This document shows positions 5,526 through 63,478 of a DNA stretch of 64,000 bases, piece by piece. The stretch covers positions 1 to 64,000 of the forward strand of contig JAUVXF010000001.1 of the NCBI GenBank assembly GCA_030603695.1, given 5' to 3'. The position numbers and the translations under genes are program-made. The notes under the pieces are model-generated. The model searched no databases and had not been told where the DNA came from. It saw nothing but the letters and a program-made list of their open reading frames with translations. Each line of letters opens with the position of its first letter. Within the stretch, counting starts at the first letter, position 1. This DNA comes from Natronohydrobacter sp. GTDB lineage: Bacteria; Pseudomonadota; Alphaproteobacteria; Rhodobacterales; Rhodobacteraceae.

Positions 5526-5608
5526 CGCCTTTGCGGCCAAGGCGCGCTTCACCCTGCCGCCCTCTTGCGCTAGACTTGCCCCAACGCGCCAGATCTGAGG
5601 GCCAGAGC

Positions 5609-5851
5609 ATGCTGACATTTCTTTCCCACAGGCCCAGAACAGCCCATTTTTACAGGGTGGATGTCACCTATAACCTGTTTGGCGAATATTCTGTCATCCG
5701 CGAATGGGGCCGGGCGGGGCGCAGGGGGCGGCATGTGGTTTCTTGCTTTGGCAATCTGCGCGATGCCATCCGCGATGCCGATCGCTGGCACAGGCGCGCA
5801 TTCCGGCGCGGCTATCGCGTGACATTGCGCGAACACACCCTGCCGCTTTAG
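5609..5851 (+). CDS. Small WGR-domain protein
   Basis: An 80-residue protein that is almost only a WGR domain: an aromatic/basic N-terminus (RTAHFYRVDVTYNLFGEYSV), the signature REWGRAGRRGRH, and a helical end (FGNLRDAIRDADRWHRRAFRRGY). WGR domains bind DNA or RNA ends in PARPs and also occur alone in bacteria, where their role is unknown. The protein is very Arg-rich, fitting nucleic-acid binding. The ATG at 5609 begins the domain; the in-frame ATG at 5531 would add a low-complexity stretch overlapping the hairpin upstream. It has no operon partner. Confidence 0.75.
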   Translation: MLTFLSHRPRTAHFYRVDVTYNLFGEYSVIREWGRAGRRGRHVVSCFGNLRDAIRDADRWHRRAFRRGYRVTLREHTLPL

Positions 5852-6143
5852 GGCGCAGTGCTTGGCCGAGGGGCGGGCTATGGGGGGATTTCTTCTATTG
5901 CGCGGAATCAAGGCCGAAGGCCGCCGCGCATCGCTGGGCCGCCCCCCGGCACAGCGATTTGGCTGCAACCTGCGCTTAGCTTCAGTTTCGTTCGGACATT
6001 GCCGCCATAAAGTGACATAGCCTCTAGGCTAGATCGCCACACCGCGGCCCAGCGCTGCGCGGCTTGGCGCGCAGTTTCCAAGCTCCCCAATCCGCACGAG
6101 ACCGCCCTTGCCAATGTTACCTGACATGCCCGGCAACCCGCGC
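5852..6143. other. Intergenic stretch holding repeat copy A
   Basis: Convergent gap between the WGR gene and the second RND operon. The only structure I see is the dispersed repeat at 5899-6064. The remaining bases show no gene. Confidence 0.7.
5899..6064 (+). repeat. Dispersed structured repeat, copy A (full)
   Basis: About 166 bp beginning TGCGCGGAATCAAGG and ending GCTGCGCGGCT. It contains a short 5' hairpin GGCC-GAA-GGCC, a left arm CCGCGCATCGCTGGGCCGC, a near arm CGGCACAGCGA, a conserved core (TTTCGTTCGGACATTGCCGC) and a distal arm GCGGCCCAGCGCTGCGCGG that pairs with the left arm at 18 of 19 positions. Near copies are at 25178, 41735 and 63303. Confidence 0.85.
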
Positions 6144-21400: not shown

Positions 21401-21575
21401 GGGCGGAACTTATCCCTTTGTTGCACGGCACTAGGGGTTACAGTGATTTGCCCATGATTGGAATAGCTGTTCCAGACCGGCGCTTTGCTTTTCGGCACCT
21501 CTCTGGCAGGGGCGGGCCAAGGGCTGGGCAACCGCCACCCTTGCCCCCCACGCCCAAAGCCCTTATCTGATCTCT
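21401..21575. other. Divergent promoter gap between aroC and the thi leader
   Basis: This stretch should contain the promoters for aroC (leftward) and for the TPP-riboswitch transcript (rightward). I see no coding potential, and no box clear enough to name. Confidence 0.5.
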
Positions 21576-21662
21576 ACCTTGGGGAGCCTGCATAGAGGCT
21601 GAGATGTGCACAGCGCGCGAACCCATCGAACCTGAACCGGTTAAAACCGGCGGAGGGAAGGT
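21576..21662 (+). ncRNA. TPP riboswitch (THI box)
   Basis: Direct match to the thiamine-pyrophosphate aptamer. P1 is ACCTT (21576-21580) with AAGGT (21658-21662). It has GGGGAGCC, the pyrimidine-sensing GGCTGAGATG (21598-21607), then CCATCGAACCTGAACCGG and the closing CGGAGGGAAG. It ends 55 bases before thiB. The thiB ribosome-binding site GAGAGAGGGA lies downstream, so control of translation start by TPP is likely. Confidence 0.95.
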
Positions 21663-21717
21663 TTGGCCCAAACCCATCTCCCCCGCCGCCGCGACATAGA
21701 GAGAGAGGGACACCCCC

Positions 21718-24958: not shown

Positions 24959-25059
24959 GCAGCCCGACCTTGCGCGGAATCAAGGGCGTTAGCCCGCCGC
25001 GCATCGTCATGCCGAAGGCATGCCTCTGGCATGACGCCGCCCCCCGGCACAGCGCTGCG
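24959..25059 (+). repeat. Dispersed structured repeat, copy E (core deleted)
   Basis: It keeps the 5' end (hairpin GGGC-GTTA-GCCC, then CCGCCGCGCATCG) but a palindromic insert (GTCATGCC ... GGCATGAC, 25006-25035) replaces part of the left arm. The near arm CGGCACAGCG then runs directly into the distal-arm sequence CTGCG. The conserved core of about 110 bases is missing. This fits recombination between the two similar CAGCG-containing arms. Confidence 0.7.
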
Positions 25060-25177
25060 TAGGGCGGGCCTGCGGCCCGTATTAACCGGGCGGGTGCGGG
25101 GATGGGCCGGAGACAGGAACCTCCCCGCCGCCTTACGCTGCTCTTGTGTATCTTGTGTATGACGCAGCAGCCCGACC

Positions 25178-25345
25178 CTGCGCGGAATCAAGGGCGTCAG
25201 CCCGCCGCGCATCGCTGGGCCGCCCCCACGGCCCGGCGATTTGGCAGCAACCAGCGTTTAGCTTTAATTTCGTTCGGACTTTGCCACGATAAACCGCTTA
25301 GCCTCAAGGCAAGATCGCCGCACCGCGGCCCAGCGCTGCGCGGCT
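25178..25345 (+). repeat. Dispersed structured repeat, copy B (full)
   Basis: Full copy. The 5' hairpin is GGGC-GTCA-GCCC. Left arm CCGCGCATCGCTGGGCCGC and distal arm GCGGCCCAGCGCTGCGCGG match copy A. The near arm is CGGCGA instead of CAGCGA, which still pairs with TCGCTG through one G-T wobble. The core is TTTCGTTCGGACTTTGCCAC. Confidence 0.85.
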
Positions 25346-41734: not shown

Positions 41735-41903
41735 CGCGGCGCGGAGCAAAGGCCGAAGGCCGCCGCGCCTCAAAGGGCCGCCCCTCGGCACAGCGATTTG
41801 GCTGCAACCTGCGCTTAGCTTGGATTTCGTTCGGACATTGCCGCCATAAAGTGACATAGCCTCAAGGGCAGATCTGTGCACCGCGGCCCAGCAATGCGCG
41901 GCT
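41735..41903 (+). repeat. Dispersed structured repeat, copy C (full)
   Basis: Full copy in the convergent parB/hemW gap. 5' hairpin GGCC-GAA-GGCC as in copy A. The left arm is degraded (CCGCGCCTCAAAGGGCCGC) while near arm CGGCACAGCGA and distal arm GCGGCCCAGCAATGCGCGG are retained. The core TTTCGTTCGGACATTGCCGC is identical to copy A. Confidence 0.85.
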
Positions 41904-63302: not shown

Positions 63303-63478
63303 AAGCCGCGCAGCGCCGGGCCGCGGTGCGGCGATCCGGCAGAGTAGCTAAGCGGTTTATGGCGGCAAAATCCGAACGAAACCAAAGCTTAGCGCAGGTT
63401 GCAGCCAATCGCCGTGCCGGGGGGCGGCCCGGCGATGCGCGGCGGGCTTCGCCCTTGATTCCGCGCAAAGCTGTAGCT
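63303..63478 (-). repeat. Dispersed structured repeat, copy D (full, minus strand)
   Basis: Full copy in the opposite orientation. Read on the minus strand it has 5' hairpin GGGC-GAA-GCCC, left arm CCGCGCATCGCCGGGCCGC, near arm CGGCACGGCGA and distal arm GCGGCCCGGCGCTGCGCGG. Compared with copy A, the left arm has T to C and both partner arms have the matching A to G, so both alternative pairings are kept. Core TTTCGTTCGGATTTTGCCGC. Confidence 0.85.

Follow-up and report, generated by a model that had tools for sequence, protein, structure and literature searches.

Introduction

The CcrM-associated intergenic repeats (CIRs) of Caulobacter are described in PMC2229807 (section 7) as repeats with inverted arms and an exposed GANTC site. 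The element analyzed here was found in positions 1 to 64,000 (forward strand) of contig JAUVXF010000001.1 of Natronohydrobacter sp. (GCA_030603695.1); this 64,000-nucleotide stretch is referred to as the window. CIRs are the closest known kind, since they share with the element the pairing of inverted arms and a GANTC site; the likeness is one of description. No description of the element itself was found in the open-licence literature, which was searched for repeats of this kind or sequence, for CcrM repeats, and for loops.

Within the Rhodobacteraceae, the element is probably a non-autonomous palindromic DNA element of the MITE/CIR-like kind, spreading and turning over between gene ends. It resembles a small genome passenger more than an RNA switch. 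In this best reading, the co-evolution of its arms is unusual for a MITE/CIR-like element.

Copies in the Window

The initial annotation placed four copies of a ~165-bp element at 5899, 25178, 41735, and 63303 (minus strand), and blastn found all of them there. The cores are located at 5899–6064 (copy A; blastn and alignment), 25178–25345 (copy B; blastn and locus comparison), and 41738–41903 (copy C; blastn) on the plus strand, and at 63304–63468 (copy D; blastn) on the minus strand. When copy A was searched against the window, the values were 1.9e-56 for C, 4.1e-52 for B, and 9.8e-54 for D, with 87–88% identity to copy A over 165–172 bp. The size of ~165 bp holds for the core, but the whole element is longer, as outer arms of ~65–90 bp lie on both sides and extend as far as the flanking stop codons in most single copies.

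In copy A, all parts of which are given on the plus strand, the sequence shows a hairpin named P1 at 5900–5929 (GCGCGG-AATCAA-GGCC-GAA-GGCC-G-CCGCGC) with a GANTC (CcrM) site, GAATC, at 5905. According to the alignment and pair counts, it is followed by the left arm a at 5930–5941 (outer half ATCGCT, inner half GGGCCG) and the near arm b at 5947–5958 (inner half CGGCAC, outer half AGCGAT). The pair counts also define the distal arm d1 at 6033–6044, whose outer half ATCGCC pairs with b, and the distal arm d2 at 6045–6060, whose inner half CGGCCC pairs with the inner half of a. The outer arm on the P1 side (5852–5898) starts after the TAG closing the open frame 5531–5851, which was not called as a gene by our own caller, and the outer arm on the d2 side (6065–6143) runs to the TAG stop of the right-hand gene (CTA on this strand).

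The paired differences first noticed among the four copies were all recovered. Copies A and C have GGCC/GGCC as the inner stem of the 5' hairpin, and B and D have GGGC/GCCC. In A, the left arm ATCGCT stands with distal CCCAGCG and near CAGCGAT; in D, ATCGCC stands with distal CCCGGCG and near CGGCGAT. Copy B has the near-arm change alone, which leaves the left T opposite a near G as a G-T wobble. Elsewhere in the window, a TPP riboswitch (Rfam RF00059) lies in a divergent gap at 21570–21675.

Copy Number and Distribution

A copy number at chance level would have spoken against the element; the own genome (2.95 Mb) contains at least 65 full or partial stretches in the union of the searches. At least 48 copies were found there by blastn, 47 of these longer than 150 bp, and the 5' hairpin motif had 56 matches, with none for a reversed-pattern control. 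It should be noted that the BLAST counts of copies and genomes rest on the best-scored candidates and are therefore lower bounds. Dozens of copies were present in at least three genomes, with 40 matches in G020 among the best 40 of 135 candidates and at least 35, some of them short, in G021 among the best 40 of 71.

In the blastn search of 60 genomes (the own genome and 59 relatives) at E 1e-5, matches were obtained in the own genome and in at least 24 of 35 genomes of the same genus, and none of the 24 relatives outside the genus matched at this threshold. The 11 same-genus genomes without a match among the best-scored candidates count against the reading of a spreading element. In a sample from the order, the P1 motif was detected in 25 of 196 genomes and 17 of 87 genera; the tool used assigns all 196 genomes to the family of the window. 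A sample of 289 genomes from the class, four of them from the same family, gave no match in the 288 genomes other than the own. An exact-motif scan of named genomes yielded at least 117 stretches; the 80 titles among those listed bear Rhodobacteraceae or Roseobacter-group names as far as they could be placed, and one that was hard to place, Carideicomes, belongs to Rhodobacterales. The element is also present on plasmids of Pseudosulfitobacter, Salipiger, and Roseinatronobacter (95 records). The exact motif had no match in the viral collection, and blastn had none in phage records.

Two peculiarities of arrangement were seen. In the complete chromosome of G021, no element was among the matches listed for C1:0.80–1.70 Mb, a quarter of its length, and others lie across much of the rest. 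Short head-to-tail arrays of two or more copies occur at L043 and L044 (G000 contig C18) and at G000:C2:20829-21255, C29:10944-11359, and C7:247523-247946; they have a common spacer of ~95 bp, unlike the outer arms of single copies.

Architecture and Covariation of the Arms

Read from 5' to 3', the element comprises P1, arm a, a stretch rich in C, arm b, a middle region (~75 nt) holding a conserved ATAAA, arm d1, and arm d2. P1 consists of GCGCGG, AATCAA, an inner stem usually with a GNA or GNNA loop, G, and CCGCGC. Such loops were counted in 215 of 227 hairpins, a biased set in which one inner mismatch at most was allowed and loci picked by exact motif were included.

For the analysis of covariation, a family alignment of 66 sequences (64 distinct) from many genera was built. 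Of 81 exact-motif matches, 75 were long enough and 40 were kept once those with inserts, truncation, or no middle motif had been taken out (L171 was removed later); 23 of 49 relative loci were taken in as well. A second alignment comprised 47 copies of the own genome and omitted one copy of 144 bp.

Each arm is made up of an outer and an inner half, and the halves differ in their partners. Watson–Crick pairs fill 370 of 381 cells between the outer half of a and b, 366 of 381 between the outer half of b and d1, and 379 of 384 between the inner halves of a and d2 (no G-T, three A-C). The two other combinations of halves counted are loose (289 and 256 of 384). The 64 rows contain 10 different outer words and 13 different inner words; the outer halves of a, b, and d1 agree exactly in 42 rows and the inner halves of a and d2 in 60, compared with a shuffle mean of 31.9.

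The long structure has 87.1% of cells paired in the 66 sequences and 146 double-change cells, compared with 39.9 ± 5.0 in shuffled and 11–28 in slid controls. The local structure has 83.9% paired and 85 double-change cells, compared with 27.9 ± 4.0 and 15–29. The shuffle control is inflated by relatedness, and the slid control retains relatedness but favors a consensus-derived structure. Most family rows were picked by the exact P1 motif; therefore, P1 was judged on the 47 own-genome copies, which were chosen without this motif. Its inner stem shows 187 Watson–Crick pairs, one G-T, and no A-C, and the third pair is C-G in 27 copies and G-C in 19. Left unaided, RNAalifold picked P1, the inner halves of a with d2, and b with d1. 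The covariation, expected to vanish in 20 or more copies if spurious, is kept in both alignments, and the double changes stand far above the shuffled and slid controls; the initial annotation had held such paired changes to be hard to explain by chance.

A left arm with two mutually exclusive partners, acting like a switch, had also been proposed. Two competing conserved pairings do exist, but it is the near arm b, and not the whole left arm, that takes part in both; the left arm splits, its outer half pairing with the near arm and its inner half with the distal arm. As far as sequence can tell, the geometry of b may allow alternative pairings, but it is also expected from two short words repeated in inverted order, and the switch did not find support.

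The outer arms are of the same kind on both sides of the core. Their complementarity within a copy (own pairs score 24.0) is no higher than between different copies (25.9, sd 9.1), which counts against the palindromic reading. In seven cases the halves of an element are more than 220 bp apart, and from this spacing alone they were read as fragments.

A fragment of the element lies upstream of copy B, at 24970–25060 (plus strand); it comprises P1 and a portion of arm a, and a CGTC...GACG hairpin is nested in it. A REP-like second hairpin, CATGCC/GGCATG, lies inside arm a of some copies, several of which have CGTC...GACG ends; besides the window fragment, it was found in L119, L136, L145, L153, L167, and the G007 loci L080 and L081, and it resembles the CGTC-tagged repeats described in PMC3733652. 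At the corresponding position of arm a, the Lentibacter copies L154 and L168 have a different hairpin, GTCACATTGC...GCAATGTGAC.

Matched arms could arise by mutation and not by selection, if templated correction of a quasi-palindrome kept them alike without any function. Few intermediates were seen beside the double changes, some of which are double transversions in P1, and this speaks for such correction. However, the halves of a, b, and d1 match exactly in 42 of the 64 rows and co-vary in distant genera as well, other halves show no such match, and templated copying alone would not preserve the GNA/GNNA loop of P1 (counted in the partly selected set above) or the middle motif. We therefore regard this explanation as unlikely.

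In the preferred reading of a palindromic DNA element, the arms would be read at the DNA level, as two short words that recur in direct and inverted order. They may be recognized by a recombinase or transposase whose gene lies elsewhere, or copying errors at the palindrome may correct one arm from the other.

Position Relative to Genes

Gene context was determined with a simple codon-usage gene caller built for this analysis. With it, copies A, B, and C fall into convergent gaps and D between co-directional genes, so that three of the four copies lie in convergent gaps, as first reported. Among 48 copies, 27 are convergent, 20 co-directional, and one divergent, and none is inside a called gene; the 40 unique gaps divide into 22, 17, and one. 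Divergent gaps thus make up 1 of 40 gaps with an element, compared with 6 of the 12 gaps in the window that are 150 bp or longer and free of elements (p = 0.0003).

The copies mostly abut stop codons. Of 51 gene ends that face an element no more than 170 bp away, 30 have TAG as their stop; the corresponding counts are 13 of 54 for the window and 21 of 82 for further genome stretches, both of which include some genes adjoining elements. The tetranucleotide CTAG is rare (19 vs. 225 expected). IS630-like elements insert at CTAG in stop codons, and insertion of this type would fit the enrichment of TAG; CTAG-type termini as a sign of the target site are suggestive only.

Turnover at Loci and between Strains

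The two genes that flank copy B were located side by side with the locus between them in 12 of 30 genomes. The element is present in one orientation in G000, G027, G009, and G017 and in the opposite one in G011, and G020 has a remnant, also in the opposite orientation. It is absent from G013, G029, G015, and G012; G019 has other DNA in its place, and G004 and G030 appear empty, judging from coordinates. The locus in G002, a 66-base left match, was left out of use. In G021 (C1:3395086-3412414), the flanking genes of copy B are 16 kb apart with an element adjoining each, as if elements had served rearrangement.

At the locus of copy A, the right-hand gene was found in 20 relatives, and the left-hand gene was not common to them. 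The core stands beside the stop of the right-hand gene in G009 and G011 in the orientation of the window and in G020 in the opposite one; no core was detected in the stretches examined of the other 17 relatives, some of which are short. Seven element loci of the close relative G027 were also compared with the own genome. The flanks of four match an element locus there and those of three do not; at one of these three the own genome has a truncated element in the opposite orientation, and at another its flanks are on two contigs. No near-identical empty site was seen among the loci compared, which counts against the reading of a mobile element, as does the lack of an autonomous (ORF-bearing) version in 1.4 Mb of fetched loci.

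Strains of Pseudosulfitobacter pseudonitzschiae were compared at three plasmid loci, which had been selected from hit lists; many further records carry either one allele or the other. The flanks are 96.9 and 97.0% identical in L280/L283 and 99.2 and 94.3% in L281/L284, and in both pairs the ~200 bp between them hold an element whose type and orientation depend on the strain: one strain has ATCGCC- or ATCGAC-type arms, and the other has AGCGCCCGACCG-type arms in the opposite orientation. At the third locus (L279/L285), one strain has an AGCGCC-type element and then an ORF, and the other has an AGCGCC-type remnant and then an ATCGCC-type element, without the ORF. These loci are the clearest sign, at the level of sequence, that whole elements may replace each other. 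Replacement might proceed by gene conversion through the outer arms or by targeted insertion. In the preferred reading, copies would replace one another via their palindromic outer arms in either orientation, and such replacement would homogenize the type within a genome.

DNA Repeat or Structured RNA

The initial annotation suggested selection on structure, either in RNA or as terminal inverted repeats. The pairing is indeed kept, and the evidence leans to DNA inverted repeats and not to RNA. Watson–Crick pairs make up nearly all of the three tight helices, with 10 G-T and 8 A-C among 1,146 cells. As G-T and A-C are rare and about equal, DNA inverted repeats fit better than RNA, in which G-U should be tolerated on one strand. 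In the loose arm halves, A-C exceeds G-T (40 to 6 and 77 to 4), a possible hint of RNA on the minus strand. A minus-strand RNA had first been suggested by the A-C excess on the arm pairs and was set aside: splitting the helices left the excess in the loose halves only, and the folding energies favored neither strand more than in shuffles.

Orientation was examined in two ways. Between co-directional genes, 12 copies are antisense and 8 sense, which is no clear preference. Relative to replication, 42 of the matches listed for two complete relatives are leading and 28 lagging (p = 0.12), which we do not claim as an effect; the origins were guessed from 20 sampled stretches each, and the count omits short fragments of G021 as well as a copy located on a second contig. 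GNA-type loops with a C-G closing pair are stable DNA triloops according to PMC5815330, and the GNA loops of P1 are compatible with folded single-stranded DNA without being proof of it.

A structured RNA, a 3' UTR switch or an mRNA stabilizer in which b chooses between a and d1, would account for the strong covariation in the 66 sequences and for the pairing of outer b with both a and d1 (370 and 366 of 381 cells). The copies also lie just past stop codons, so they are probably read into, and the A-C excess of the loose halves could be G-U on the minus strand. However, the tolerance of G-U expected of an RNA was not seen in the tight helices, and the near-absence of wobble extends to the P1 inner stem of the own genome in spite of its many C-G/G-C exchanges. 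Folding energy shows no strand excess, orientation no clear preference, and a low-threshold Rfam search with copy A no match to the element, and relatives carry opposite orientations at the loci of copies A and B. Taken together, these points make a structured RNA quite improbable.

The CcrM Site

The most conserved block of the element, GGAATCAAGG, contains GANTC. The site is intact in 51 of 57 own-genome copies, where N is the most variable position of the block (changed in 9 of 57, compared with 11 of 513 at the nine other positions). In sequences without the exact search motif, GANTC is present in only 79 of 110, and some carry GGAACAAAGG or GGAGCAAAGG; the changes among these 110 fall on N (29 sequences), T (22), and C (21). 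The own genome encodes CcrM (3.9e-163 to CcrMI of PDB 6pbd). The window has 12 intergenic GANTC sites, 4 of them within elements; the elements were taken as 756 bases, compared with 9,571 intergenic bases.

A bolder form of the palindromic DNA element, to which we give a small chance, is one gated by methylation. In it, P1 would expose the CcrM site, and the word shared by a, b, and d1 would be read by a co-evolving host protein, DNA-binding or recombining, that swaps whole cassettes between convergent gene ends in step with replication.

Comparison with Known Systems

Should the reading of a palindromic DNA element hold, a repeat for which no description was found in the open-licence literature is carried by many members of one bacterial family, its arms record co-evolution with a putative DNA-binding or mobilizing protein, and the type at one site can differ between strains. 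Through the CcrM site, the use of cell-cycle methylation by such repeats could be tested directly. The lack of wobble offers a simple criterion for distinguishing covariation at the DNA level from that at the RNA level in other families of repeats.

A REPIN, that is, two REP hairpins in inverted order mobilized by a RAYT transposase, would match the two inverted-order hairpins, the high copy number, and the genome-specific sequence, but it is very improbable, as the own genome (a 99.97% complete draft) has no match to Y1_Tnp (PF01797) when 5 of 14 control genomes do, no GTAG/CGTC tag is conserved (best column GTAG in 6, CGTC in 12, and the complement GACG in 19 of 64 rows), and the core of 165 bp compares with REPs of 20–40 bp in PMC3733652. 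Like REPINs and BIMEs, the element consists of inverted hairpin pairs in high copy at gene ends with genome-specific sequences; unlike them, it is far longer and comes without a RAYT match in the genome or a conserved tetranucleotide tag.

With ERIC/IRU and other MITEs (Correia, RUP), as given in PMC2229807, it shares the form of an intergenic palindromic repeat with no ORF and possibly a TA-centered target, here CTAG at stops; its nested four-arm plan and added P1 hairpin set it apart from them. The small variable segments between strains described in PMC2884548 are likewise short stretches swapped in otherwise near-identical genomes, but here both alternatives belong to one palindromic family and stand in opposite orientation.

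The likeness to CIRs, as PMC2229807 presents them, covers the intergenic position, the multiple copies, the alphaproteobacterial hosts, the two inverted-repeat arms with a linker, and a GANTC at or near a hairpin loop; the element is itself a multi-copy intergenic repeat with inverted-repeat arms. It differs from CIRs in size (~110 bp in CIRs vs. a ~165-bp core plus outer arms here), in the place of its GANTC, which sits in the internal loop of P1, and in the replacement of elements at a site and the co-evolution of arm words observed here.
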